Shown: piece by piece, positions 6,017 to 41,301 of the stretch
Layout: each line of letters opens with the position of its first letter
Position numbering within the stretch: position 1 is the stretch's first letter
NCBI GenBank assembly: GCA_025024175.1
Contig: QCXZ01000064.1
Span: 53,403,325 to 53,467,324 of the forward strand
Direction of reading: 5' to 3'
Source: Rhyzopertha dominica
Taxonomy: Eukaryota; Arthropoda; Insecta; Coleoptera; Bostrichidae
Length of the DNA stretch: 64,000 bases
Made by a program: the position numbers and the translations under genes
The notes under the pieces: model-generated
The model's database searches: none
What the model was told of the DNA's origin: nothing
Seen by the model: the letters and a program-made list of their open reading frames with translations, nothing else

Positions 6017-6182
6017 ATGGGTACCCATATTTGTATGAACATGAAGAATATGCAAAACATGTATGATAGAGGTATTAGATCTACCAATAATCACGCCGAA
6101 ACAAAAGAGATCCTGTTAAGGCCAAGAACTTTGCTGAATAAACGTATTTTGCACAAAAACTGTCAGCCGCCGCTTAACCACT

Positions 6183-6402
6183 AATTATAATTACGACAAA
6201 CGATAATTTGTCAAACCACTGCGCTGCGATAAAACGTGCTTAAACTTTTTGAATTCATCTCACCGAATCTGTGAACCGATTGTTTGACCACCAATTATAA
6301 TTACGACAAACTATAATTTGTCAAACCACTGCGCTGCGATAAAACGTGCTTAAACTTTTTGAATTCATCTCACCGAATCTGTGAACCGATTGTTTGACCC
6401 CA
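6183..6402. repeat. 110-bp tandem duplication
   Basis: Two head-to-tail copies with period 110 (6183-6292, 6293-6402) differ at only a few bases (for example 'cgataattt' versus 'ctataattt'). They lie directly against the right LTR and are probably internal sequence of the LTR element. Confidence 0.8.
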
Positions 6403-6410
6403 CACCTGAA

Positions 6411-7257
6411 TGAAAAACATAGAAAAACTAATGCGGGAATAATCAAGAAAAACTTACATTATCGCCGCCTTCATCCGTGGGTCATAACAATGCGGTCACT
6501 CCGGTGGACAGACAAGGCGGTTTCACATACGCGCGGGAGATGCAAAAACAAAACATAAGTTACTCATCCGTTAAACTCAAACAGATACAGTTAAGACTCA
6601 CAGAGGGGTTTTCACCCCAGGGCATCATCCTTATCCTGTCCATGGTATATCCCTTAGATTACATCATGAGTCAATGGTGGTTATGAATACCTTGTTAGTT
6701 TTCTCTCTTCAACAACTAGCTAGTGTCAACCTGAAATAGTAGAGGCTTCCCCGAACGCTCACCCTAAGGCCTATAGGGTCGCATTCCAATAGCCCGGATC
6801 GGGGGCACCTAATAAGGCTACCCTCTCCACCAGAACTATGTCATTCGAGATATCCTGCATTACCCCCCGGAATGCAAGTCCTCCACTCGAAGGAACCACA
6901 GCTGTTAACCGGGCACTCTGCTCTAGGGGTTTCAAACTGCCTGAGGCACATCATGGCCAAAGACCTTACTCTCTCTGCCTGAGGCACAACATGGCCAAAG
7001 ACCTCGCTCTCTCAGAGCCAAAATCAAGAACATTTCTTTCTGTCAAAAATGACACATCCATACTCATTGCCTACTTTTGCATCTCCTCGCGACTCTGATA
7101 TTTCTCGCCAAAACAATTAATCGCATGCATACGCATTCGCTTAGATTTTAGTATTTATCTTATTAACAGCGATTCTAAACATAGCAAGAAATTAATAAAC
7201 GCACAAAAACACCTTTTATTTTAATAATAACGTAGATACAAAAATTGACATTTAACA
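6411..7257. repeat. Right LTR (847 bp)
   Basis: Same length as the left copy, with one visible mismatch. It is followed directly by TAAT, the second copy of the target duplication. The near identity implies recent insertion or recent gene conversion (family knowledge: LTRs are identical at insertion). Confidence 0.82.
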
Positions 7258-7802
7258 TAATGTATTGAACCACCCCCGTATATGTTGAGGGAAGAGTAAA
7301 AATATTTTTATTTTGTAGACTTAATCCCTCCCTACCACGCTGCACTCGCAGAATTTTAAAATATGTAATAAAAATTGCGTAATATTCCGTCCACGCACTA
7401 ATGGGCCACCCTGTATATTATGTGCAGTAATGCCTGCAGATACTGTAACGAACTGGATTTCTTCAGTGATAATAGCATAGTGTTTTTAAGAAACATCTAC
7501 TGAATATTGTAAGCTCAGTACTTTATGATATACTCTGTGTACTTTACATTTCCTGTATTTGGGTCTTCTATTCGTTGTAAAAAAACTATTTATATTTATT
7601 TACGATACAAGTGTGACTCAAAACATACGAACATATAAATCATAATTTTACAAAATGCAAATTTGACCTTTAAAACAAAATAAAATATTGACAAGGATTG
7701 AAGAGCATGTCTCAGCTATATAGTTCTAGAACGGAATCATCTCGTTTTAAAATTGTATTAACGTTACACAAGCAAATTGCTAACGTAAATAATCTGTTGC
7801 AG

Positions 7803-14550: not shown

Positions 14551-17500
14551 ATGAACCTCGTTGGAGCGTATTACATGTGGTGGTTGAGTGTATTAGTGTC
14601 AGTACCAGCTGTCTTTATCGCTTATTTTAAACATTCACTGAAATACTGGGAGAAAAAGGGTGTTCCAAATGTTGAGGGCAGTATCCCTTTTGGAAGCGTA
14701 AGCAAGATGATCCTTCAAAAGTGTGCAATTGGGGAGCAACTGCGTCAATTCTACAACGAAGCAAAATCCAGAAATTTGCCACATATTGGTTACTATTTCA
14801 TTACTAAACCTACTTACGTTGCAGTAGATCCCTTGATAATAAAACACGTCCTGCAAACCGATTTTGACGCATTTACGAACAGAGGATTCTACCACAACGA
14901 AAAGGATGATCCACTATCTGCAAATCTGTTTACACTCAACGACGGAAAATGGAGAACACTCAGGCAACACTTCACACAGACCTTCACCTCTGGACAAATG
15001 AAGAATATGTTTCAGACCTTGGCCGATACCAGCGTGGGTCTAGAAGACGTTATGGTAGAGCATTCTGGCGGCAAGACGATGAATGTAAGAGATGTTGTCG
15101 CCAGGTTTACAACTGATGTCATTGCATCATGTGCCTTTGGCATTGAGTGCAACACCCTAAAAGAGCCTGACTCAGACTTTCGCAAATATGGAAGAAGAAT
15201 CTTCGAAAGAAGTATAATTACAACCATGAAATTTTTCATGAGGCTGGTGGTTCCCGACTCGGTTATGAGGTTTTTCAAGTTCAAGTCCACGAAAACAGAC
15301 GTGGAGAAATTTTTCATGGAAGCCATAAGAGAGACAGCCCTTTACAGAGAAACCAACGACGTCTACAGGAAGGACTTCATGCACCTCCTTCTGCAGCTAA
15401 AGAACAGAGGTAAACTGGTGAACGATGGAAAGGTGACCGGTAAAAAGGAAGGTGGGGTCGACTTGAATCTCAATCAAGTGGCAGCGCAGGCATTTCTTTT
15501 CTACGTAGCGGGCTTTGAAACCTCCTCAACAGCTTCGTCGTTCACGCTTTACGAACTGGCATTAAACCAACACTTACAGGACAAGGTTAGACGGGAAATT
15601 CGAGAGGTTTTGGAAAGATATGGTGGAAAAATAACATACGATGCCATTATGGACATGAAGCTTATGCAGCGTGTTCTAGAAGGTAAGCTTAACCTAACTA
15701 GTTGCACTTTTATGGCCTACTTCTGATAATAAGCGTCAGCAATGTGTGCAAATACAGAGCATTTGCAAAGTTAGTCTACAGTTTAGCACTGAGCGCAATT
15801 TTTCTTAATTCTCGGCACTTAGCTCAGCTTTTATTCACTCTTTAGGGTTATAAACCGGGGCTCCCCTTGTTCATTATCTGAAACAACAAATATGTGTTTG
15901 TCTAAAGCATTAAAACCTTTACAACACTACATATAACAGAAGGCTTCACGAGAGTAACCTTTTGTGTAAAAGATATATATTTTTTTGTGTCAAAGTAGCG
16001 CCATGCTCGTGGTTATTTTGTCGTGGTACTATTTTGTGTTCAGTGCCACATAAGTATTATTTGGGGGTTAATTTAACACCAAACTCTTCATATTTGCTTA
16101 TATCTTTATTTTAAAATACTTAGAGGTCAAATGTTAGAAAAAGACATATGTTTACCTAACTTCGATTTATTTATTAAGGTTTACACTGTAGGAAAAAAGA
16201 CTGAACGGAAATGTCATTAAAAATAATGGGTATTTAAAAACAAGATGTTCGTTTTTGTATATCTTCATCACCCTCACACCTTGGATATTAATACCGTGGA
16301 TTCGTGGTGTCATTGTTATAAAGTTCGCAAACCCTATTCCTGCAAATGACGTAGCGAATCCAGTACTTTCCGATATAATGTGCTGTTTTCTTTTTGCTCC
16401 TTACCTACTCTTCTTGGAGAACAAATTTAAAACTCAGTTTGTGAGGGAAAGGTCATCGACTGAAGAGTGTAATGGATGAACTGTGTTAGAGGCAATTTGA
16501 TGCAGAATTTCCACTTGAGTCTGATCTTTGCAATTTTCTAGTGAAATGCGATTGTCTGGTTTTGAGATCAATTCCTTACATGGCGCACTCTCATTAATGC
16601 CACTAGATTCTGAAATATTTAAGTAAACTATCGGCTAAAATTCTACCAGTACAGGTTTCTTGGGAAGAAAATCTATTTAGAAACATATTAGGGTAAAATG
16701 GATGCCACCTAGTTTCTCTAAAAACCTCTTGCAGATTTGACTTTATATCGGGTGTTATAGATTCCATAGTATTAAAGGGAGCATGAGTAAGTGTTCCTTA
16801 CGAATCATTGCTCGACGCCTGGGTTCTTGTCTCCATCTATTCAAAATTTTTTACCATGTTTTTTAACGGGACCAAAAACTTCAATGTCCAATGGTTGGAT
16901 CAGGTATGTGGTGTTAGGAGGAAATGCATTGAAATGTTGATGACCTCACAACTTTGGCTGAAAAGTGTGATGCCAAATTGTTACACAAAGCAAAGACCGT
17001 TTAATATTCTCCCCTCATTTGCTCCAATTTTTATATAAATTTTTTTACTTATAAACAACCATAGGCGCCAATAAAACTCCAGCATCCGTTCCACAAAACA
17101 TTACACTGATTAATGTTCTTGAATACTCCTTTTACTCGCTACACTCGTTTCTTTGCTCGTGTTGTAACAAGTTCTAGTGACATCGGATCATCTCTAATGT
17201 TTATTTCGTTGTAATTATATAGATGATAAGATTTAATAGTTACTAGAACATTACGAATGTTTTCATAAAACTCAGTAAGTTCAGTAGGACCTACAAATGC
17301 TCTCTGTTACTTAATATTTGTGGCTAGACAAGCAGAAGGTCCAAAGCACTTACAATATCAACACCCCACACATTATTTTCCTACTCTGATACAACCCTGT
17401 CTTGTGGTCATATATTGTATATCTACTTTAGTCATCGGAAATTCTCAATCACTACTGTTCTCAAAGTTTGTGCTATCAATTCTTCTTCGACTTTCTGTGC

Positions 17501-23180: not shown

Positions 23181-25047
23181 GGCCCTTCCCACATACATAC
23201 ATTTAGCTGATTAAATAAGTACGTACTTACGAAATTGTTAATGAAGTAAAATTTATAGACAAGCGTATTTCACAATTTTCATCCAGAACTCATATTTGAC
23301 CTATGCAAATAACATTCAATAAGTCGTTGTCAAACGGTTTTCAAGTTTATTTTGGTCAGGAGTCATAATACGATTTCTAATATGTTCAGCTCTTCTAATG
23401 CATGATTCTGAGTGTTGGGTTAATTTTTGGAAGCAATGCACTGGCGGGCTACGGATGTTGGCTTAAATTTAAAAAAAAATTGCTAAATGAAAAATGTGAT
23501 AATCAAATAAACCCAAAGGCTCAGTCTAAATAAAAGTTGGTATATTCTGTAATGTGTACATAACAAAGCATGTCTTGCATAATTTTATGCAACTATCTAA
23601 TTCTGATTTTACACAGCACTTACTCATAATGTGTACAAAATCGTCGTCGAACATTGAAATGTAATACGCTGTCATTTTAGAGACGTGTTGCGGTGTCTGG
23701 TTATTATCTAGCATTTATATAATCGACTTAAAAGCACTATTTGCGATTTATGACCATGTCATTATTTTAGCCAAAGAGCAAGAAGAAGTACTCAAATTTG
23801 AGGTATTTAAAATATCAGATCGCGATCACGGTTTTTGATCCTAATTTGATGCTAATAACCGTAATGGAGTATTATCGATGTGCTCATATTCAGTTTTAGA
23901 TGACGATATTAGGCACTTTAAGCACATAAACTATGCATTTATGATTAAAGTTAAAAACATAAATTACTTTTATGTCACATAAAAACTGCCGCAGAACTAT
24001 CAATCGTAGTATAACTTACATTGCATTCATAAGACTAATTGATCATAAGGGAATACCTACATTTGTAATAATTTATACTGTGCGTTTAATTGTTAATCCC
24101 TGCAGATTTCAATACAGTTAAGTAAATTCCGCAAAAAAAATTTTAACATACGTTTTTGGCGACATTGAGCCATATTTTGCAAATCAATGACAGCCAGCAA
24201 GATGAATATAATACATGAAAGGATTTCTGCAGCTTGAGAACAATAACAGATAGTGATTTTAAAATTATGTAGAACTTTGTGTAGAATTAGATGTATGAAT
24301 AAAAATTGTTAGAGATAAAACGACCATCAATTTAATGCTGATTGGTGTTTGGAGTTTGGCCAGCTGACGCATAATGCTGGGGTTTATAACTTGTATATTT
24401 AAGTTCAACTAAGATTAGCTAAACCAGTAGCTTAAATCCTTATAGTCTTAGGTACTGTTTCACGACCAGGTTGTTTCCTCATTCTCAGTTTCGACAATTT
24501 TTTTATCTATACTAGCTACGTATTCACTTCTAACTTAAATTTCTGAAGCTTCTAATGCAAAAAGTTGAAACTAAAAAGCGCATTGGTTAATTAATTAATA
24601 TTTGATATGTGCGAATTCCAAATAATAAAATGTTGTTCTATTCTGCTTAAGGCGAAATTGATATTTCTTTAGTAGGTACTTCGTTTGACATTACTATACA
24701 TTATGTGGATCACTGATCTTTATTCTTCCAAATAAAATGTATCTACTCATCTTTTGTTAATCGTGATAAGACATGCAACTAAATGCACTAGATATCGCCT
24801 AAGTGAGATCATCAATAATTGAATTAGGAATAAACGAGCTTTTGAAGATCAGTATATATTAAAAAAACCATAAAAAAACTTGGGTCTTCATAGGAGATTT
24901 TTTAAGTCACTTTGCAGAAAATCAACGGAGATTACTTACTTAGGTACGTGATCCGATAAAGGCATATTTTTATTTATGTTGAATTATTCAGTAAGGGAAA
25001 TTTCTGCTTTGCCCCATCTTAGAAGAAAAGCTGGGTACGCCCTTGCA
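23172..25047. mobile_element. hAT-like non-autonomous element, longer copy
   Basis: Collinear with the element at 27625-29010 from 'ctctgggc..ttcccac' through 'cagtaag' to 'agctgggtacgccc'. It has about 510 extra bases (roughly 23230-23738) absent from the other copy, and it lacks the G-rich left terminus. Identity in shared parts looks about 85-90%. A 62-codon - strand frame lies in the extra segment (23714-23526), with no recognised domain. Confidence 0.7.
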
Positions 25048-27624: not shown

Positions 27625-28791
27625 CATGGGCGTACCGAAGGGGGGCGGAGGGCAAGGGGGGCAGCTGCCCCCCCCCCTGGACCTGGACTGTCAACTCTGG
27701 GCATTTCCCACCTTCCATAAATTTAGCTGATTAATTAAATTACTTATGTGTTGCGATTTATGCCCTGGTCATTATTTTAGCTAAAGAGCAAAAAGAAGTA
27801 CTCAAATTTGATCTATTTAAAATATCAGATCAATGCGATCACGGTTTTTAATTCAAAATTTGCTAATGTCCAAGTTTAATGGAGTATTACCGATGTGCTC
27901 ATATTCAGTTTCAGATGACGATATTAGGCGCTTTAAGCACCTACACTATGCATATATGATTAAAGTTAAAAACATAAATTACTTTTGTGTCACGCAAAAA
28001 TTGCCGCAGAAGTAACAATCGGAGTATAACTTACATTGCCATAATAAGATTAATTGATCATTACATTTGTAATAATTTATGATCTGCGTTTAGTTGCTAA
28101 TCCCTGCAGATTTCAGTATAGTCAAGTAAATTCCGTAAAAATTTTAACAAACATTTTTTGCGATATTGAGCCATATGTATTTTGCAAATCAATGACAGAC
28201 AGCAAGATGAACATAATACATGAAAGGATTTTTGCAGCTTGAGAACAATAACAAATGTTAGTTTTAAAATTATGCAGAAATTTGAGAAAAATTAGATATA
28301 TGAGTACAAATTGTTAGAGATAAAGCTACCATCAATTTAATGCTGATTGGTGGTGTTTGGTCAGCTGACTCGTAATGCTCAGGCTCATAACTTGTATTTT
28401 TAAGTTTAACTAAGATTAATTAACCAGCAGCTTAAATCATTACAGTCTTAGGTACTTCTTCACGACCAGGTTGTTTCCTCATTTTCAGTTTTGATCATTT
28501 TTTTATCTATACTAGCTACCTATTCACTTCTAACTTAAATTTCTAACGCTTCTATAATGCGAAAAGTTGAAACTAAAAAGCGCATCGATTAATTGATTAA
28601 TATTTGATATGTGCGAATTCCAAATCATAAAACTTGGTTCTATTAGTAGAAGTTTAATTTATATATTTATATTATTCTTCCAAATAAAATGTATCTACTC
28701 ATCTTTTGTTAAACGTGATAGACATGTAACTGAATGCGCTAGATATCGCCTAAGTAGTATCATCAATAATTGAATTAGCTTTTGAAGATCA

Positions 28792-28826
<35 letters not shown>

Positions 28827-29010
28827 CATAAAAAACAGAAGAAGTCACGTTGCAGAAAATCAACGAAGATTATTAATTAAATAAATACTTCGTTAGTTAT
28901 TTAAGTACATAATCCGATAAAGGCACATTTTTATTAATGTTGAATTATTCAGTAAGAGTAATTCCTGCTTTGCCCCCCCCCCCTTAGACCAAAAGCTGGG
29001 TACGCCCATG
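27625..29010. mobile_element. Non-autonomous hAT-like element with 8-bp target duplication
   Basis: Starts CATGGGCGTACC and ends GGTACGCCCATG, a 12-base perfect inverted terminus. It is flanked by the 8-base direct repeat GCACAGGG (27617-27624, 29011-29018). 8-bp duplications are typical of hAT elements (P and others also give 8). Poly-G/poly-C tracts adjoin the termini, and an (AT)n run lies near 28795-28822. No transposase frame is visible. A longer relative lies at 23172-25047. Confidence 0.85.
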
Positions 29011-30365
29011 GCACAGGGTATAGTAAGTGTTGCAACTATAACAATTTTGGGGTCCAATTCTCTTGCAACAAAATATAGGCCTAGTTTTTTGCTCACTTTT
29101 GTCCAATATATAAACAATTTATGTTTAAGTGCATTTATCTTGTTAAAAAATACATGAACCGTAATACTTGCATAAGAGGGCAAAATGTTGCATTATGTGG
29201 TGTACACAATGTCTCGGCCATTGGAAAAGCTAGCTATGGATGTTTTGGCGTCCATTTCCTTGACTTGTCAAAGTTTCTACTGTTTTTCGTTTGATTTTGA
29301 TTATCGAGATTATTGTTGTACTTTTCACTCTTTTGTTCTTATTTTTGTTTCTGTTCATTGTTCCTGTGTGTTTATTCTTACTGTTTGATGTTCCTGTTTA
29401 TTGATCCTGATTATCGTTCCTGTTCATTATTTCTGTTTATTTGTTTATTGTTGTTATTTATTGCTCCTGTTTATGGTTCTTTATTGTCGCTGCTGATTAC
29501 AAAAATGTCGTATACTTCACGTGAGTATGCAGAAATGCATTTCATTTAAGGAATGTGTACTGGAAACTCTCGACGTCTGCGGATGTTTACCGTCATCGCC
29601 ATCAGGACCGAGACCGATTTCCCGATCACCGAGTATTCATCCGCGTGCACAACGCATATACGGAAGGCAGAAATCCTGGTGCACCAGCTCGTAGTACAAG
29701 TAGACCTACAATTGATGTCGCGAGCCAAGACGAAATACTGTACGAAGTTGAAATGGATCCGTCAACAAGTATACGCCAAATATCATCAAACACTGGTGTA
29801 AAAGAGTCGACTATACAGCGATCCCTTAACAGAGAGCTGTATTATCCATTCCAGATTACAGATTACCCTTACGAGTGCAGTTCTGCATGCGAATGTTGAT
29901 AAGGTGCCGAAGAGACGAGAGCTTCTTTAACAAGATATTATGGACTAATTAATGCCATTTCACGAGGGTGGGGATATTTAATACCCACAATCTCCGTAGC
30001 TGATCTAGCGAAAATCCCCACGAAATACATAATAGTCGCTTTCAGCATCAGTTCGGGAGCAATTTATGTACAGGAATTGTAAGTGGAGCTCTGATCGGAC
30101 CACATGAGCACCCTTGAAAGACTAGATGCCGCCCGATACCTACAATTTTTATAAAATTAACTAGGACCCTTACTGGAGAAAGTTCTTTGAATGTTAAGCA
30201 GAGAATGTGACTTCAATTAGATGAAGCTCCAGTGCTCCGGCGCACTACGCGCAAATAGAGAGTTTGTAGCATTAACTTTATTAAACAGACTGCTCAACCC
30301 CATGTATTTTAAAGCAGCGCCTGCCCGTCTTCTAAATCCAGATGGCTGTAGCATCGCTGTCTTCA

Positions 30366-30381
30366 GCTACTAGGTGGCGCT
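30366..30381 (+). promoter_or_regulatory. CTCF-consensus-like motif near the left P-element end
   Basis: GCTACTAGGTGGCGCT fits the CTCF core CCxxYAGRKGGCGCY closely. It lies 96 bases inside the left terminus. A weaker related word (CCAGATGGCTGTAGC) lies at about 30338. Whether CTCF or the element's own THAP domain binds is unknown. Confidence 0.4.
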
Positions 30382-30559
30382 TTTCAGTAGATAAAATTAT
30401 AGGAACTAGGAAACGGAAAGCAGATCATATTAGTACTGTTAAACATTTCATAGATGTCGACCAAACAGCATATTGGGCAATGTTGCCAGATTCACCAGAT
30501 ACTGCTATTGAATTTATTCTTAGGGATCCTTTTTTTACTATTAAATATTGAATGTATCA

Positions 30560-31456
30560 TTCTTTAATAGTTTTAAACAGGATGTCGAAAATATTTACGA
30601 AAAACAGTGTATAGTTAAAGCTACGTTAAAAACACTTTTCTAAATGGCACCTATAGGAAGTACGAATTGATATATATTATTGACGTCCCTTCTGTTTTTA
30701 TTTCTATGCAATCTCCAAAATTAAATTTAATAATCTATATTTGTCAAAGCTTGCAGTAAAAATTCCAAGTTGAATTCCTAAAATTTAATTTTACAGCTGT
30801 TTCAAGTGTCATAATTGATAGGTGTTATTTATTTTGTATTTATAAATCTTCAAATGCAAAAATCCGCCGTATCTACCCAAAATATAATTGGAAAATTAAT
30901 AAGATTTTAAAGAATTCAATAAAAATAATACTTGAAAATATTACGTTGAAATGGTCAAAAATGTATAATTTTAAAATAAAACTAGCATCGCAATATTTGT
31001 TTTGTTAAGCTGCAATACATCAAAAACTGTTTTGCATGCCTACTACTACTGCGCTTTATAAATCTATCGGCACTGGGACACTCGTATAAATTACTTATTA
31101 CGTCACTATTTCTGCATAGAAACTAGCAGAAACTAGTAAGTACAATGCAGTAAAGAGTGAAGGGCGGGGATAGGGAAAGAAAGCTAAACGCTCAGCGGTC
31201 CCGGTCCTGCATCCTGCATCCTGCATGGCCTGCATGGTATACGCTCAACACAACGCAATATAGCTAAACACTCAAGAGAAGAGTTTGTGAAATTCGAGTT
31301 TAGCGGTATTTTCGTACATTCAAGCTCTTCTGTAACGCACGTATTTGTAGAGTGTTCAAGCTCGGTAATTAGCTACAACAAACTGCTCTGAAAATTTTTC
31401 ATGTTTACACCCGCTATTGGTTGGTGGATCAGTGGTTTGTGCACGTTATTTTAAAA
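30560..31456 (+). other. P-element left non-coding region / transposase 5' flank
   Basis: Non-coding between the subterminal region and the transposase ATG. It includes a small 'cctgcat' repeat cluster at 31206-31237. A 69-aa open frame at 30342-30551 lies wholly in the subterminal part and shows no domain. Confidence 0.4.
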
Positions 31457-34400
31457 ATGCCTAATATTTGTCAATACGCTGGCTGTGGTGCAACAAAAAG
31501 AAAAAATCCTGAAGTGAAAATGTATCGTTTTCCTGTAAAGTCGTATAGCCAAGTTCAGGATTGGATAATACATTCAGGTAAGTTTTTTTGTCAATTATTG
31601 CATTATTTATGTAGGTATCAAGTACAGCAGATTACTGTTGGGCAATACGTAATAGGGTACCCCCACAAATTTCTTTACATTTGACTTTTTTGAAGCAAGT
31701 GCAAGTCTAAACTACTAAATATTTATATACGGACCTACATCAGTGTAAAAATAAGTAAATAGGCCATAGTTCATCACATGCTGTGATTTCTTCTTTTATT
31801 AATGTGAATTAGTAGCTCACTTATTTTGGTCTCCTAGGTATCCTACCTGTTATAAATAACTAATTTTCATGCTATTAAACAAAAAAGTTTCAGTCTTGTA
31901 GAGAATACGGCTGTATTAAGTAGCAAATAGCAATGTCAGTATAGTAATTTAGACAGTGTTTACGTGAAAGTAAATATTTTGTGATATATGTTACAAACCA
32001 AGTAAAAATTTACAAATTTATGTTGCCTTTTGCATCTGTATCTAATTAAAACTATTACTTTTATGCTTATGTATGTTAGTGGCAATGGACTGAACAAGTC
32101 TTAAACTGCATCATATAGAACACTAGTTTATTCGTATCAGTTTAAATAAGAAAATACGAGTATACTTACACAATAGGTGTCCAGTAAAGAATGGGCCATA
32201 TGTTAACAGTAGCTTTTTTGGGTCTAAATGAGCCAAAGAAACTAGCTTACCTTAGTACAGTTTGTTACAGTTTGACAGTTATTATTTTGTTTTTCAAAAT
32301 ATTTTATTCAAATTTGGTGCATTTACTTAGTCTAGATAAAACAGTATATTTTACAATATGAATAAATTACAGAGGGTACTCAGGACATTTCTTTATTATT
32401 TTGTTTTTGCTATCTCTTACTTTACTTTGAAAAAGGTATACTTGTCACATATCGGTAAAATTAACTGCTTGAGAGAAATAAATCTATTTTAATGTATCCC
32501 TATGTGCTGAACAAAATAAAGATCATAAAATAATTCAAATCTAAGAAGTATATATCATTAATTTGACAGTCTATTTTATATCAATTAGATAAAACCCAAC
32601 ATAAAAAGGTAAAGAACTTAGTAAGTAACAGCAGAAAATATTACATGAAAAGCAAATGTGGCTGAAGACAGCTTCAGATTCAGATTCGAGAAACGAATTT
32701 TTACAGCGGACCAAACAAATCATCAACTATAAACGGTAAACACGCAAAATTACTAATTACGTGGTAATGCTACAACGCAAATTGTGTTAAATCATATCTC
32801 CTATCACAAAAATTCAAGTCTCTGTCATCCAACCTTCCCCTAAAATAATTAATCCCTTAGGACTTAAAACTTTCTCATGAGGAGAAATTAAGAGCCGGTC
32901 ACCATGAAATTACTCCATGAACGATTCAAAAATTCGCAGAGACCAGAGGAATAGTTGATACAGGTTAAAAATAACATATCAATTAGACACGAAAAAATTC
33001 AGAGCGACCACCCCGAAATCACCCCCGCAAACATTAAAAAATTCACAGAGACTAGCGGAATAGTTGATACAGGTTAAAAATTTGCANGTGGGTCTCTAAT
33101 ATAAGTATATATAACATATCAATCAGACACGAAAAAANTCAGAGTCGACCACACCGAAATCACCCCTGCAAACATTCAAAAATTCACTGAGACTAGCGGA
33201 ATAGTTGATACAGGTTGAAAATTTGCATGTGGGTCTCTAATATAACTATAAATAACATATCAATCAGACACGAAAAAATTCAGAGTCGACCACACCGAAA
33301 TCACCCCCGCAAACATTCAAAAATTCACTGAGACTAGCGGAATAGTTGATACAGGTTGAAAATTTGCATGTGGGTCTCTAATATAAGTAAAAATAACATA
33401 TCAATCAGACACGAGAATATTCAGAGTGGACCACCCCGAAATCACCCCCGCAAAAATAGATTTAAAGTTTTGCTTAATTCAAAAATGGGACCATATAGAC
33501 TCATCAAAGGATGCCGAGTCAAGGCAAATATTCTGGAGAAACGACTTACCATCTCGAGGTTAAAGTGTCCATTGGTTTTATAAAGGGTTTCGAATAAACA
33601 ACAGAATCTTACTTTGTTACTCCAGATTTGTAGATTGTAGTAAACGTACTGATCCCGACTGTAGAATATTTAAACTTTCATTTGAAAGTCATATGGAATT
33701 TACCTCATATTACAAGAGAACAAATATGTTAACCACAATCAAGAATACTCGTATTTGCCCACATGAGAGGGTGCCGTAAAGTAAAAATTATCACCCCAAA
33801 CACACATAAAAGTAAAAATATCGCTGCGGTGGACATAGATACATTTTTAAATGGAAGCTGACAATCCTTGCGTCTACTGACCATGTACGAAAAAGCAAAT
33901 TCAGAAGTTCCAGCAGAAAATGATTTTCATAGTGATTCATTTTTAGATATGTATTCTCTGCAAATTTCTGAATCCTTGAGCGACGTTGATTTTTTTCGTG
34001 ACTGATTGATATTTTATTTGTGCTTCTATTAAACGCCCACGTGTAAATGTGTAATCTGTATCAAATATTTCTCTAGTCTCTGCAAATTTTTTAATATTTG
34101 AGTAGTTTATTTCGGCGTGGTCGACTCTGAATTTGTTCGTGTCTGATTGATATGTTATTTATACTTATATTCGAGACCCACATGCAAATTTTCAACCTGT
34201 ATCAACTATTCCGCTAGTCTCTGTGAATTTTTGAATGTTTGCGGGGGTGAATTCGGGGTGGTCGACTCTGAATTTTTCGTGTCTGATTGATATGTTATTT
34301 ATACTTATATTCGAGACCCACATGCCAATTTTTAACCTGTATCAACTATTCCGCTAGTCTCTGTGAATTTTTTAATGTTTGCGGGGGTGATTTCGGGGTG

Positions 34401-37400
34401 GTCGCTCTGAATTTTTTCGTGTCTAATTGATATGTTATTTTTAACTTGTATCAACTATTCCTCTAATCTCTGCGAATTTTTGAATCGTTCATGGAGTAAT
34501 TTCATGGTGACCGGCTCTTAATTTCTCCTCATGAGAAAGTTTTAAGTCCTAAGGGATTAATTATTTTTAGGGGAAGGTTGGATAGCAGAGACTAGAATTT
34601 TTGTGATAGGAGATATGATTTAACACAATTTGCGTTGTAGCATTAGCACGTAATTAGTAATTCTGCGTGTTTACCGTTTATGGTTGATGATTTGTTTGGT
34701 CCGCTGTAAAAATTCGTTTCTCGAATCTGAATCTGAAGCTGTCTTCAGCCACATGAAAAGCAATACCTATGAATAATAATAATAATAATAGCATTAACTA
34801 TAACCATATTAAGGCATAAATAAATATCTACCTATTTATTTAAAAGAAATCAAAAATGTGTAGAACTTAACAGAGGGCATTTCTAACACATTTTAAATAA
34901 ATAGGTAGATATTCATTTGTGCATTAATATGGTTATTGTTTGTTATTATTATTATTATATTGCTCTTCATATTGTATTTTCTGCTGTTACTTAATAAGAT
35001 TTCTATCTTTTTATATTGGTTTTATTTAATTCACATAAATTAAATTAATGGTATACACTTATAAGATTAGAAATATATTTTATGATCATTATTTTGTTCA
35101 GTACACAGGGATATTTTTTTTAAGTAAAAAGACCAATCTTTAAGTAAATGTCAAAATATTTTAGAATTATTTATTCTACAAAAAGTTATTGCAAAAACAA
35201 AATAATAAGGGAGTGTCAAGCGTGCCTTTTATGATTTATTCAGGTTGTAAATATCGTGCCTTATACGGAATGATAGATGTACCATATTTGAATACAATAT
35301 CTTGAAAAGCAAAGGGCAGTGGAAAGTAAGAAAATGATCTACATACTTAATGATGTGTTGGACAAGCACGGTTTTAATTGAAAAAATATGCCTATTTAAC
35401 TTACACATATAGAAAGTAGTAGTGTAAAATTCTACATAAAATTGTTATGGTTCAGAACAGCAACTAAATGATTAGAAGTCATGCGTACCTAGCACAAAAA
35501 GCAGAATTTCTAAAGTTTTGGATACGCGTTTATGTAGACTTTGTTTCAAATTTGTTTTAAGGTTCATCTTCTGAAGTTTCGACATTCAAAATTAAAATTA
35601 ACACTGTACATATTTATTTAGTGGTAATAACGTAACTTAACATAATTGTGTAAATAACTCTATCCTAAGGTTCTCTAAACTCAGGTTGAGCTTAGTGTCA
35701 CCTCTGTCATTACTTGTTTTATATTTACAATCTTTTTACTTTGATCTAAATTTAAATGTATCTTTTAGGAAATCCATCTTTACTACAACTTGAAATAGAT
35801 CAACTAAAGGACAGGTACATTTGTGAGAAGCATTTTCAAGATGATGCCTATGTAAATCCAGTGACTAAGAATCGTCTAAGGCCTTCAGCAATCCCCATCA
35901 AGCACATAGAAGTTCCTTCTACATCTGGAACGTCCCCCCTTCAAAAAGTAAAAGAATCAAAAATTATTTACACTAAGAAGACCCAACAGGTAAAACCTTC
36001 CCCTTCTAAAAGTGAGTCGCCGGTTACACCAGATAAATCATACATAGAAAAAATTATAAACATGCCATCAAAATCGAAGCGTAAGTTACATTTTGAAGAC
36101 ACCCCGGAAAAGAAAAAATTGCGATTGCAGGTAAAAGCTCAGAAAAAATTAATAAGCACAAAACGTTCACATATAACAAGGCTGAAACAAAGAATTCGGA
36201 CACCAAAGTACACTTACACAGACATTGAAAATATATTAGAAAGCTTTCCTTTTAAGTCAGAAAGTTCTAAAGCTTTTGCAGCAATGCAGTTCAAAACAAA
36301 AATTTCCCCATGGAAACCCAGTGAGAAAAAAATTTCAATGACTTTGTTTTACAAGTCTCCTGCTACATTTAAGGCACTTCGACGGGATGGTGTAGTGTTA
36401 CCAGGTACTTCTACCATCAGAAAGTGGATTGGGAACTCGAAATTTATGCCTGGCTTCAATACATATCTGATGTGGCAGATTAAACTAAAATTCAGTGGCA
36501 AAAATGAAAAAGACAGAATATGTTCAATTTGTTTTGATGAAATGAGTCTAATGGCAAACATAGAGTATACAAAGGAACTAGACATAATTGAAGGATTAGA
36601 AGATCTGGGGCATTTGGGGCGCTTCCCTAAAAATGCGAATTATGCACTTGTATTCATGGCTCGAGGAATTTACACCGCTTGGAAGTTACCACTGGCCTAC
36701 TTTTTATCAAATAGCGGTGTTAAATGTGCAGATTTATGCCTTCTGATAAAAGAAGTTCTAATAAAAGTAATACATGCAGGCTTGCTCCCCAAAATTATAG
36801 TTTGCGATCAAGGAACAAGTAACCAGAGCGCTCTCAAAAATTTAGGTGTGAGTTGTGAAAAACCATATTTTTATCAACGAACATAAAATTTTTGCCATTT
36901 ACGATACACCACACTTAATGAAGAGTATTCGCAATAATCTTTTAACTGGAGATTTTTTACTGGACAACAAAACAATATCTTTCTCTGATATCAAACATGT
37001 ATACCAAATAGATAAGAAAAATGACAAATGCAGAGCTTTATTGAAGATCACAGACAAACATATTTACCCAAATTCTTTTCAAAAAATGAGCGTCAAATTA
37101 GCTACTCAATTGCTAAGCCACAGTGTTGCAGCTACAATCAGAACATGTGTAGAAACTGGTGAACTCCAAAGTCAGTCTGCATCCCATACTGCTGACTTCA
37201 TTGATTTAGTCGACAAAATATTTGACTGCCTAAACAGCAAAAATTTGTTTTCTAAAAATCCTTATTCATGTGCTCTTTCCTTATCCAATAAAACTGCTTT
37301 GCACATATTTCAGGAGGGGAAAGAGCTTTTCTGTAAGCTAAGTAAGGTAAGCCATAAGAACAGGAAAACAAGCAGACCTTCTTGTTTCAACGGCATCATT

Positions 37401-38285
37401 CAAACCATACAGGCAGTTCTGGAATTAACAAAACAGGAAGCTGAAATTCAACCAACCAACTATATTTTAACTAATAGGCTCAATCAGGATGTCCTCGAGA
37501 ATTTATTTTCAATATACAGGCAGAAAGGAGGCTATAATCGAAATCCCACCTCAAAATTGTTCCGAGCAACTTTTCGAAGTAACGCTGTGAACTGCCTGAT
37601 GAAACCATCGGGTTCTGCTAACTGCGAACCGGATGCGGACGAAATGATTAATATCGATGAAAGTTTTTTGGAATCCTCTATAACAAAATCGCAGTTAACA
37701 GATGCATACTCGCAAGATTCAGATGAAAGTGCAAATCCATCATCATCATCTTCCAACAATGGCTCAGACTATGGCGACAATAATGGTGCTAGTGTTTCGT
37801 TAGAAGATTGTGCCATTAACTATTTTGCGGGATACTTGGCAAAAAAATGTATTGAACATTTTAAATGCAAAGAATGTGAAAACTTATTAACATGTGATTC
37901 ACTTTTAATCGACAAAAACCAGTTATTAATATTATACAAGACTTATGATAACATTAATAATTACAATAATACAATGGAAGGCCTGAAAGCACCAAGTAAA
38001 CAGTTTTGCAGTATTATTACAAAATGTTTGAGAATATTTGAAAATAATTTTATTAAGATCTACCACAAGAAAAGTATAAGAAAGAGACTGTTGCTTAAAT
38101 TAAAAAAGAATCATGTTATCATGGCCTGGCTGCAGGATTCGTGCACAGAGCATAAATTATTTACTTTGGAAAACATGATTGTTGTTAAATTGTATAAAAA
38201 CTGTAAGATATTGAATCAAAAATCAGTAGCAGTGAGCGCCAGTACCAGCAGTAAACAAAAAATACGGATTTTGAAGCATATGTAG
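31457..38285 (+). CDS. P-element (THAP9-like) transposase with one frameshift
   Basis: Exon 1 is 31457-31577 (donor g|gtaagt) and exon 2 is 35769-38285 (acceptor ttttag), joined in phase 1. The 2638 coding bases make 878 codons if one surplus base is allowed for; the frame change falls at the T5 run 36868-36872. Domains: an N-terminal THAP zinc finger (CQYAGC in exon 1, then ICEKH after the splice: C-x4-C ... C-x2-H); a basic linker and KR-rich, likely coiled region (about residues 120-200); an RNase H-like catalytic core with FDEMS (Asp ~297) and VCDQG (Asp ~387); YDTPHLMKSIRNN; and the C-terminal LNQDVLENLFS with the catalytic Glu (37497-37499) and INYFAGYLAKK. All three acidic residues are present. 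Length is close to human THAP9 (~900) and above Drosophila P (~750). The frameshift may be real or an assembly error. Confidence 0.88.
32931..33462. repeat. 141-bp tandem array, left arm
   Basis: Units start at 32931 (109 bp, lacking a ~32-base internal block), 33040, 33181 and 33322, with period 141. Each contains ACTAGCGGAATAGTTGATAC and CAGACACGA..ATTCAGAG. Internal units are about 95% alike. Confidence 0.85.
33995..34500. repeat. 141-bp tandem array, right arm (inverted)
   Basis: About four units of the same repeat in reverse orientation. The order is mirrored, with the shortened unit again outermost (about 34395-34500) and a more diverged unit innermost (33995-34110). The array is therefore part of the palindrome, not an independent satellite. 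Confidence 0.82.
34766..34975. mobile_element. Small palindromic MITE within the right fold-back arm
   Basis: Inverted halves (ATAACCATATTAAGGCATAA... and its inverse) meet round 34870, with (AAT)n at both outer ends. It has no counterpart at the mirrored place in the left arm (about 32645), so it inserted after the palindrome formed. Confidence 0.7.
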
Positions 38286-38321
38286 TTTTGTTTAGTTAAC
38301 GTTTGTCATGTCATACTAGCG

Positions 38322-39035
38322 CAGGCATTAGAAAACAAAAATTATGTAGATGAAATAATTGCATACAAGCTGAAATATGGCTTAAATGCTTTCTAGTGTG
38401 GTTATTAAAGATTATTATATAAAATCGAAGCATCCAGATATCTGGCAACATATTGTTTAAAAAATTTGTTTTAAAGAAAGTTTCAATTTTTTTGAATATC
38501 TCAGTCTAATCGTAAAAATTTTAATTGTTATTACATTTGGAATAAGGTCTTCATAGTTTTTATGAGTTATAAACAGATAAGGCAACCCCTCTATTCTATT
38601 CAATATTCCAAGATCAGGATAACTGCGCACTATGCCATGCAATCATTTACAAATATTAAGATTTTGTATTTATTTAAAAATGTTAAATTTTGATTTATAC
38701 ATACACCAAACATATTCTACAGCATACTGCAGTTTTTGTAACAGTGCGGACACAAGGGTTACGTTTTTTCACTTATAACTTGTAAATAATGTCCTGGGGG
38801 TAAAAACTATACAGATCTTTTTTATTCCATAATTAACAATTAAGATTGCCTCCGCCATTTTTGCAATTAGACTTGTAGGTCCTGAGACATTCACAAAATA
38901 TTAACATTTGTTAAGTATTTTGCTGGACCTCTTCATTATACTTCTTATTGTTATGTTTCTCATCACACTAGAAATAATCGAAGCCATATTTCAGCTAGCA
39001 TGCAATTATTTAATTCATTAAGTTTTTGATGCCTG
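38322..39035. mobile_element. Fold-back repeat in the P-element 3' region
   Basis: Arms 38322-38402 and 38958-39035 are inverted copies of about 80 bases, beginning GCAGGCAT and including GCTGAAATATGGCTT, separated by ~555 bases. The left arm starts about 37 bases after the transposase stop codon. It may be a MITE inserted in the element or part of its own architecture. Confidence 0.6.
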
Positions 39036-40320
39036 AACTATATCACTATTATATTTAATGTAACATTTGATTTGTAATAGTAGTAGTTTATGATACTGTT
39101 TTATCACAATATATGTAGTTCTGTTTTTATATTAAATTTGTTTTTGTTCTTACTTTATTTATGTCATTATTACCTTCATAAAGACAAAACAAAAAGAATG
39201 TGGGCCATACTAAAAAAATGGGGTATTTCCATTTAAGCATTAATTTAAAAATAATAAGTTCTGAGTGGGCGTAAGCTAAAGGTAAGTATTCTTTAGGGTT
39301 TATATTTATTGAGTATATTTAACACTAAAATGCATGTCTATGCTGTGCTGTCTACACCTCAACCAACACTGTTACATAAATATCAGCATTATGATCAATG
39401 TAGAAATTTGAATGTCTCATTCTTTTGGGGATTTCAGCAATTAAAGAACTTATTTACATTATTATCTATGCAACAGTGCTGATACTTTTTATAATTATCC
39501 TCCCCCCGTTTGTTGTGAATATATTTTGATAAANGCTTTAGAACTTTCACAGTTTCGTTTTGCATCCTAGTTCTTACATTTATTATAATTTTTGTACAGT
39601 TTTGAATCAAAAAGTTTAACCATTTTTCTCAAAATCAAATAATCCAACATCTTAGAATCCAATAAGAAATGCATTGCAGATTTTACAACCCTCCTATAGC
39701 TACCAAACTGCTTTCCGTTAATAAAGCAAATAATTAATATAATCTTACGTAAATTAAATGTAAAGTAACTTCAGATATGGCTACCGCTATTAGGGTGAAC
39801 ACCAATTTTTTCTTTTACGTGCTACTTTCATCTGTTTTTAATACTATTTAATATCAATACTTAATGTAATTTTTAATTAAACACCTTTGGTTAAATAGAT
39901 TAATAACTCACCATTAGAATTTTACATTACCACATTCCCCTATAGTAATACAAATATACCTATGATACAGCATAACCAGGGTTTACATAACATAAAGGCT
40001 TAAACAGTTATAAAAATTCCATTCAATCCATTCCTTAAGGGATTATGAACACTTGTGTTTTGTTCGTCCTATAGCCATTGTTTTTCATGGAATTTGAGGA
40101 AACCTGAGCAGAAAACGATCTCTTCAGTAATGTCACAGGTTCATAATTTGTATTATTTCAATACAATTAAATAATTTACGAAAATTCATTCAACTGGCAT
40201 CACTGCAGTGGTCGTCGGTATCAGTACCATCTATACGCTAGTAGCTTTACTACTCTCAGAAGATTCCTACCCAATGTTTGATTTAGTTGTCAGTTAATAT
40301 ACTATAAATGCTCACATTTG
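39036..40320. other. P-element 3' non-coding region
   Basis: AT-rich, no further frame of note, one undetermined base near 39534. It presumably holds the transposase 3' end and subterminal binding sites. Confidence 0.4.
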
Positions 40321-40326
40321 AATGGC

Positions 40327-40342
40327 TAGCGCCATCTGGTGA
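40327..40342 (-). promoter_or_regulatory. CTCF-consensus-like motif near the right P-element end
   Basis: The - strand reads TCACCAGATGGCGCTA, again a close match to the CTCF core, 62 bases inside the right terminus. It is inverted relative to the left motif. Confidence 0.4.
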
Positions 40343-41301
40343 GTTGCTAATCACGGTTTCCAATAAACCCATATGGTTGAGCAGTCTGTTTAATAAAGTT
40401 AATGTTTGTAGCAAATGCCTATAACGGCAGATGAATTGGGAGAGGGGGACTTATACCATGCCCTACGCATTCCGCCGACCTCAACTCTTTAGGCTGTTTA
40501 TTGTGGGGTTAATAAAAAGAATTTGTGTACCGGGAAAAGTCTTTAAACGAGCAGCATTTACGAAAATCAGAAATCATGCTGAGACTCTACAGAACCTCAG
40601 AAGAAGTTTCATGAGACGATGCAGGCTGTGCATTGGAACTGGTGAACAACGATTTGAACATTCATTCTAGGCGGGTTACCCGTTACTTCTTTGTTAAAGT
40701 TGTTTTAGTTGATCTTTTATGCTTTGCTATGTTTAGGCGTTTTGCTTTTCTTTGTACGTATTTTATTAGAGTGAAAATAAAACTTTTGTATAGTAATGTG
40801 ACGTACTGTATTGGTGCTTTTGTTTTCTTTATGTTGGGGCTTTTGTTAATTGCGTTTTAATTTATTAAATATGAATGACACAAAGTGGGTTTATCTTTAC
40901 AAAAAATAATGATTTATGAAAATATGTACTAGCTGAGTACTTACTTACAGCAACTTACATCCAAAGCTTGCTTTTCGAAGCCTGCCTTATGAGCCGAATC
41001 ATTGTGTATAACTGCATCACCTAACATTTCATCATATTATGCAAATACTATAGCAGATACAGAACAACTAATGAGGCACATTTGGTACATGTACTTTTTT
41101 ATAAGTTAAATTCGCTTAAACATTCTTCATGGCAGACTTGATTTAGTGCATCAGACAGTGATTTTCATAAAATCTACCAAAATATCCGTACCTTTCAAAC
41201 CGTAAACAATTGGATAATAGCATATGTGGTTATTTCGACTAGAAATGACCCACTCTATCACTTGCTTCCGTTTGGACCATCACTTTGGGAACACCCTGTA
41301 T

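Follow-up and report, generated by a model that had tools for sequence, protein, structure and literature searches.

A Rehavkus-like foldback element within an older palindromic repeat in the THAP-domain intron of a P-superfamily transposon from Rhyzopertha dominica

Introduction

The stretch of Rhyzopertha dominica DNA analysed here (the window, 64,000 nucleotides) carries a P-type transposase gene with a long putative intron that contains inverted arms and, within them, mirrored arrays of a 141-bp unit. How did this structure come to lie there, and does it do anything for the transposon that harbours it? We put forward, with a probability of about 90%, that three transposons are nested: a Rehavkus-like foldback element in an older palindromic repeat in the intron of a P element, which moved together with both and tolerates them as cargo.

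Results

The P element and its second copy

The host element and the position of the inverted arms are as follows.

30263-30269, forward strand: left 7-bp target duplication of the P element, TTTGTAG
30270-40404, forward strand: P-superfamily element, 10,135 bp, identical 30-bp terminal inverted repeats
31457-31577, forward strand: P exon 1, first half of the THAP domain
31578-35768, forward strand: putatively spliced intron (GTAAGT...TTTTAG) splitting the THAP domain
about 32286-35313: whole inverted-arm structure, inside the intron of the P-type transposase
35769-38285, forward strand: P exon 2, with the remaining THAP domain and the TNP-like RNase H and GTP-binding domains
40405-40411, forward strand: right 7-bp target duplication of the P element, TTTGTAG

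The THAP (with exons joined), TNP-like RNase H and GTP-binding domains all score above the Pfam cut-offs. The frame of exon 2 is broken near 36875 by a 2-bp difference from a second copy of the element, and the coding frame is untouched by both repeats because they sit in the intron.

The second P copy differs by 37 substitutions over 10,130 aligned bases and holds the same nest. Both copies are bordered by 7-bp duplications, TTTGTAG in the window and CTCTAAC at the second copy, the length being 7 bp with termini CATTAAC while shorter termini allow 8-9 bp. Since the second copy has the same nest, its own duplication and flanks without similarity to those in the window, the P element must have moved carrying the nest. 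An assembly artefact confined to a single site is rejected on the same ground, the nest being assembled at two separate loci. A nest-free P copy was not found: the near-identical copies found were two, both with the nest, besides a partial relative (C47, 81%) that aligns only over 36416-37270 and a 42-46 bp piece near 39322-39367.

A step in arm identity marks two elements

The inverted arms described in the earlier note are real and lie in the transposase intron; one inverted match spans 769 columns at 93% identity, far above chance. Their similarity had been called graded, falling off towards the outside, but it is in fact stepped. Outer blocks have 64-73 identical positions per 100 columns, identity jumps to 96-100 at 32656/34754, and further inward follow blocks of 91 and 97 and then the innermost units with 79 and 43/54. 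Overall, the inner arms are about 96-97% identical and the outer arms 71-73%. The step is also the site of an exact 9-bp direct repeat; these are therefore two nested elements, with the following parts.

32286-32655, forward strand: outer, older palindromic repeat, left part
32647-32655, forward strand: left 9-bp target duplication of the inner element, GAAAAGCAA
32656-34754, no strand assigned: inner foldback element, Rehavkus-like, non-autonomous, 2,099 bp
32885-33457, forward strand: left 141-bp array, with L1 shortened to 109, L2-L4 and a partial L5
33458-33951, forward strand: middle domain, decayed fragment of the foldback family's transposase gene
33940-34524, reverse strand: right array, with shortened R1, R2, R3, diverged R4 and partial R5
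34755-34763, forward strand: right 9-bp target duplication of the inner element, GAAAAGCAA
34764-35313, forward strand: outer repeat, comprising the rest of the left arm, the centre and the right arm

The identical flanking stretch amounts to 13 bp when ACAT, the element's own end, is included; the 9-bp reading follows from the assumption of symmetric termini.

When the insert is removed in silico, a single continuous outer palindrome results, with 338 of 462 columns identical. The outer repeat has at least 107 matches in the genome, the window and the second P copy counted, and all eight relatives fetched from among these align unbroken across the joined site. In four of the eight, homology begins near 32176. 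The fetched relatives are themselves palindromic (61-70% over 494-1396 columns, as computed without shuffled controls). The outer arms are a separate, older repeat family. As to the traits of palindromic MITEs of the Tc1/mariner type, a TA duplication and conserved termini, matching TATACAGG-type ends occur in one of the eight fetched relatives (L066). The right end of the window copy is eroded, and the outer repeat showed no target duplication.

The inner element belongs to a dispersed foldback family

At least 180 matching pieces of the inner element's family are scattered through the host genome. Thirteen tabulated rows, of which six have an exact 9-bp and four an exact 8-bp duplication and three have no length assigned, represent 12 distinct insertions, because the window and C86P are one and the same. 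Exact duplications thus border nine of the 12 (9 bp in five, 8 bp in four), so that copies with clean target duplications do exist elsewhere and the earlier suggestion of an independent foldback element is borne out.

Mirrored 141-bp arrays were present in all 12 foldback elements measured (C1c left out of the counts) and are usually much longer in the relatives than in the window, the tally of 51 units in C3a taking in another block that lies about 4.8 kb off. The counts rest on BLAST pieces of at least 60 bases, with which the shortened unit may be missed; under this filter the shortened outermost unit was seen on both arms in ten of the 12 elements and on one arm in the other two. In the window, the shortened unit is likewise outermost on either side, as had been noticed before: start spacings are 109, 141 and 141 in the left array and 141, 140 and 109 in the right. 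The mirror order of the units is clear for units 1 and 2 (L1-R1 97%, L2-R2 98%). At unit 3, L3 resembles L4 (97%) more than R3 (95%). On the right, the innermost units, R4 and R5, are diverged, with 73-82% identity to all the others.

Protein matches in the middle domain cover 33540-33725 and 33775-33963 and contain stops, and none of its frames matched Pfam above cut-off. The window foldback retains just a decayed piece of the family's transposase gene. Full relatives have a 786-aa frame, followed by a frame with Peptidase_C48 (E 9.4e-13) and a weak PHD match. PHD matches in three frames (E 0.0098, 0.012 and 0.028) all stay below Pfam's cut-off, and at E 1 none of five scanned frames matched a transposase family in Pfam, Mutator among them. 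The D, D, CxxH and E columns do not vary among the seven aligned sequences; the predicted structure of the transposase core is poor (pLDDT 46.4). Relatives of the protein carry a Ulp1-like domain. The gene of the full relatives probably specifies a DDE-like protein that includes a Ulp1-like protease domain and, by a weak match, a PHD finger.

As a side observation, an exact-pattern scan of viral contigs returned the 17-base end in eight stretches, a count without chance baseline; a further exact-pattern scan of such contigs returned none.

Origin of the arms

A rival reading is that a single giant palindrome formed in place, with arrays that either were copied when the arms arose or have been equalised by arm-to-arm conversion, and with similarity fading outward. 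Two observations fit this proposal: the window's arms differ by 2.6%, while any other element's arm is at least 3.5% away (distances without C1b, C137, C3c, C1c and the right arm of C97), and the mirror units L1-R1 and L2-R2 are best matches. We nevertheless consider it highly improbable. The identity step carries a 9-bp repeat, the outer arms belong to a different repeat family, and both the target duplication and the copies scattered elsewhere contradict an origin in place. Furthermore, the arrays and the shortened unit are common to the whole foldback family; since the shortened outermost unit belongs to its terminal repeats, array duplication in place is not needed.

Conversion between the arms fares differently depending on its age. 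Inner arms of the window are 0-0.3% distant from the same arm in the second P copy and 2.3-2.6% from the opposite arm. Arm differences thus persist between both P copies, and recent arm-to-arm conversion is rejected. An older homogenisation is possible, because the window's arms are nearer to each other than to the arm of any other element.

Discussion

The nest most probably arose in three steps. An old palindromic repeat lies in the THAP-domain intron of the P element. Later, a non-autonomous Rehavkus-like foldback entered the left arm of this repeat and left a 9-bp duplication; a full relative presumably supplied the transposase in trans. Finally, the entire 10-kb P element transposed with the nest, so that its two copies now have 7-bp duplications that differ. 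The sequence itself shows the nest, further copies of both repeat families, the target duplications and the second P copy, whereas splicing of the intron and the absolute timing are what we infer.

Does the palindrome regulate its host? The earlier note had raised the possibility that an intron hairpin acts on the P element, either through double-stranded RNA cut into small RNA or by limiting transposase splicing. When the 4,191-nt intron is folded in silico, the right arm pairs with 597 of 614 left-arm positions (no shuffled control), and the predicted hairpin sits within a coding intron. At E 0.01 the intron resembles nothing else in the window, the P exons included; small RNA would therefore target the foldback family and the outer repeat, not the P message. 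Control of the Drosophila P element takes place elsewhere, at intron 3, via an exonic silencer upstream of it, according to the available description (PMC7776569), and the P element studied here transposed despite the nest. We regard such regulation as decidedly unlikely. In all probability, the palindrome is of no use to the P element and is tolerated, hitch-hiking intron cargo. It is also unlikely, though conceivable, that the P element serves as a vehicle for the decayed foldback and that the predicted hairpin of the transcribed intron would yield small RNA against the 141-bp satellite and the genome-wide Rehavkus-like family to which it belongs; one transposon would then carry a silencing trigger directed at another.

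The locus documents that a P element moved at least once with nested palindromes of about 3 kb inside its THAP intron. It adds a Rehavkus-like foldback family whose mirrored satellite arrays are very long, which makes it useful for work on transposon termini as seeds of satellite DNA.

Comparison with known systems

The inner element and its full relatives fit published trait descriptions of Rehavkus, a Mutator-related group, as far as sequence traits can tell. Rehavkus is described, in the text available, by 9-bp target duplications, terminal inverted repeats of 26-400 bp, a PHD finger and a minisatellite (PMC6446971), and Rehavkus-1_TC from Tribolium by a 164-bp satellite within its inverted termini (PMC10218199). 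The inner family resembles these elements in having long inverted termini that contain satellite arrays, in its 9-bp duplications and in its insect host; its PHD matches stay below the Pfam cut-off. It differs in a unit of 141 bp instead of the 164 bp in Tribolium (PMC10218199), in 8-bp duplications at four insertions, and in a Ulp1-like domain, which the available parts of PMC6446971 and PMC10218199 do not mention.

Tetris, a foldback transposon of Drosophila virilis with duplications of 8-10 bp, shares with the inner element long inverted repeats that are unique in their outer part and tandemly repeated further in (about 220 bp in Tetris), as well as a middle domain without apparent coding capacity (PMC4079207, as far as available). 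The Tetris transposase is not known from that account, whereas the inner family has full relatives with a transposase-like gene in the same genome.

Galileo, a member of the P superfamily, is foldback-shaped, has tandem repeats in the arms of some copies and makes 7-bp duplications, in the sections available of PMC4168063. This shape could suggest that the palindrome is a Galileo-type element mobilised by P transposase, and the 7-bp duplication does match that of the host P element. For the palindrome itself, the probability of this origin is close to nil. Galileo duplications are 7 bp, rarely 8 bp, but those of the palindrome family are 9 bp in five and 8 bp in four insertions; none of the five scanned frames of full relatives matches a P-transposase family (E 1), and relatives of their protein bear the Ulp1-like domain. 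Membership in Galileo is rejected because of the 8-9 bp duplications and the missing P-transposase frame, and the Galileo-like part of the earlier suggestion falls away.

The host element resembles the Drosophila P element in terminal inverted repeats of about 30 bp and in its THAP and TNP-like domains. It is 10.1 kb instead of 2.9 kb long, has a 7-bp instead of an 8-bp duplication, as far as the accessible text of PMC7776569 goes, and differs further by its 4.2-kb intron within the THAP domain. The components of the nest are of known kinds; their nesting is unusual.

A foldback transposon within an older palindromic repeat

The following features are needed here:
30270-40404: P-superfamily element with identical 30-bp terminal inverted repeats
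32656-34754: inner element, a foldback transposon within an older palindromic repeat (the outer repeat) in the THAP-domain intron of this P element

The inverted arms and mirrored arrays are real, as the earlier note had claimed for what it described as one giant palindrome. The graded arm similarity put forward there is instead a step: the outer arms have 64-73 identities per 100-column block, whereas the inner arms, from 32671 inward, mostly reach 91-100 (97, 96, 97, 100, 91, 97 and 79 in successive blocks, and 43 in the final 54 columns). This step arises because the insert is flanked there by a repeat, GAAAAGCAA, at 32647-32655 and again at 34755-34763, in both cases directly outside the symmetric ends of the inner element (ATGTGGCTGAAG and CTTCAGCCACAT). 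Counting ACAT, which matches the end of the element itself, would lengthen the identical stretch to 13 bases; since the ends are symmetric, a target duplication of 9 bp is the simplest reading. On the right arm, about 200 additional bases, palindromic in themselves, lie between the outer and inner parts. When the insert and one copy of the repeat were removed by script and the outer arms realigned, these arms and the additional bases formed one continuous palindrome (338 of 462 columns identical, 49 gapped).

The stretch of the outer repeat to the right of the insert (34764-35313) has at least 107 matches in the genome, which are 66-90% identical except for 100% in the two P copies. Eight relatives were fetched from these matches; each can be aligned with its reverse complement (61-70% identity across 494-1396 columns, without shuffled control), and all span the joined insertion point as a single alignment piece. 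Such an alignment of paralogues through the joined point serves as an empty-site test for the inner insertion. In four of these eight relatives homology already sets in near 32176, and the outer repeat therefore extends a little beyond the left edge of the visible palindrome. For the outer repeat, no target duplication was found.

The inner foldback family

The 479-Mb genome contains at least 180 matches to the query 32288-33700. Thirteen rows were examined for target duplications; as the window and C86P (the second copy of the P element, on contig C86) represent one insertion, these amount to 12 distinct insertions, nine of which possess a duplication.

Target duplications of the inner family (C-numbers, other contigs of the same genome; final letters, individual copies)
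Exact, 9 bp: six rows (window, C136, C1a, C3a, C86a, C86P)
Exact, 8 bp: four rows (C41, C3b, C1b, C137)
Not assigned: three rows (C97, end within Ns; C3c and C1c, ends truncated or unrefined)

All 12 elements measured have mirrored arrays. Counted units are fewest in the window, at 4 and 4, and number 6 and 4 in its sister copy C86P and 7 and 5 in C3c; in the nine remaining insertions each arm has between 9 and 51. Arm matches to the terminal repeat and its shortened outermost unit number 22 and cover all 12 elements, ten of them in both arms; 19 of these matches extend to the end of the shortened unit and three end 21 bases before it. Mirror order and the shortened unit are thus family traits that the window copy inherited, and the proposal that the arrays were duplicated in place with the arms is not needed.

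Nor has intra-palindrome conversion kept the arms alike since the two P copies parted. Divergence between the left and right terminal repeats is 2.6% for the window and 2.3% for C86P, whereas same-side arms differ between the copies by only 0.3% (left) and 0.0% (right), a pattern that conversion would have erased. The two arms of the window differ less from each other than from the arm of any other element (at least 3.5%), which speaks against denying outright that an older homogenisation may have occurred. Six other two-armed elements show an own-arm divergence of 0.3-1.5%, under their mean to other elements (1.6-2.1%); in all six the nearest foreign arm is closer than the own opposite arm.

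The element on C41 contains a 786-aa open frame followed downstream by a 484-aa frame with a Peptidase_C48 domain (E 9.4e-13); a PHD match in the latter frame (E 0.0098) falls short of the cut-off. Pfam transposase families gave no match at E 1 in any of five frames scanned. Six relatives of the protein were found, four at 43-52% identity; one of the six is named, from Ceutorhynchus assimilis. All seven aligned sequences share, without variation, FDATGSV and, further along, a D, a CxxH pair and then an E; D, D, CxxH and E follow each other in this order in P/hAT/Mutator-type DDE transposases. The predicted structure (pLDDT 46.4) was too poor for use. The inner element of the window is assigned to a non-autonomous subfamily, because its middle domain gives two decayed protein matches (60% and 54%) and shares about 95% identity with the middle remnants in five elements beyond the P copies (C136, C41, C3a, C3b, C97), against about 77-79% with the longer gene. 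That gene is present twice, with stops, in C3a, one arm of which has 51 counted units. Several divergent foldback-transposase relatives with long open frames occur on C41 and C3 (loci L018, L019, L021, L022).

The P element as carrier

The P element of the window is flanked by the 7-bp duplication TTTGTAG. Its THAP domain (E 2.5e-11 once the exons are joined) is interrupted by an intron of 4,191 nt; the element also has TNP-like RNase H and GTP-binding domains. C86P harbours the nest at the same site, GAAAAGCAA, and differs by 37 substitutions over 10,130 aligned bases, plus indels that include 245 more bases in the left array and two more in exon 2. It has its own, unlike target duplication (CTCTAAC), and no similarity at E 1e-4 was detected among the flanks compared. 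Coding defects differ: a frame break in the window copy, two in-frame stops in the C86 copy. A genome search for P copies lacking the nest returned two near-identical copies, both with it. The P element evidently transposed together with its nested cargo. Its flanks in the window, 29525-30079 and 40425-40667, resemble halves of what we take to be a decayed Tc1-like transposon; Pfam gave sub-threshold support for the left piece and none for the right.

Other features of the window

An 848-bp direct repeat (1026-1873 and 6411-7258; 99.9% identity, starts 5.4 kb apart) looks like a pair of long terminal repeats from a young retrotransposon, and a 110-bp tandem in two copies (6177-6399; 98% matches) directly precedes its second copy. 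Another direct repeat of about 1.3 kb (23741-25045 and 27751-29010) is 79% identical. A CYP6-like P450 frame (14551-15726) is apparently either truncated or continued past an intron, since it comprises 391 aa as opposed to about 520 aa in many named relatives; the closest of these are from the beetles Zophobas and Tribolium, which makes a beetle the probable host, and one unnamed protein matches at 98%.

Comparison with known systems

The intron RNA is predicted to fold so that 597 of the 614 left-arm positions pair with the right arm (without shuffled control), giving the inner hairpin, for which silencing of the P element had been suggested. The intron has no match at E 0.01 in the rest of the window; any small RNA made from it would therefore presumably be directed at the foldback family and the outer repeat rather than at the P transcript. 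In the account of the Drosophila P element, control acts on intron 3 (PMC7776569), whereas the hairpin described here lies elsewhere, in the THAP-domain intron. The nest is best read as tolerated intron cargo moving with its carrier P element. For the inner family, the published traits of Rehavkus agree, as far as these accounts describe them: a duplication of 9 bp, inverted repeats measuring 26-400 bp, a minisatellite and a PHD finger (PMC6446971), for which the match here is below the cut-off, and, in the 9.5-kb Rehavkus-1_TC, a 164-bp satellite within the inverted termini (PMC10218199).
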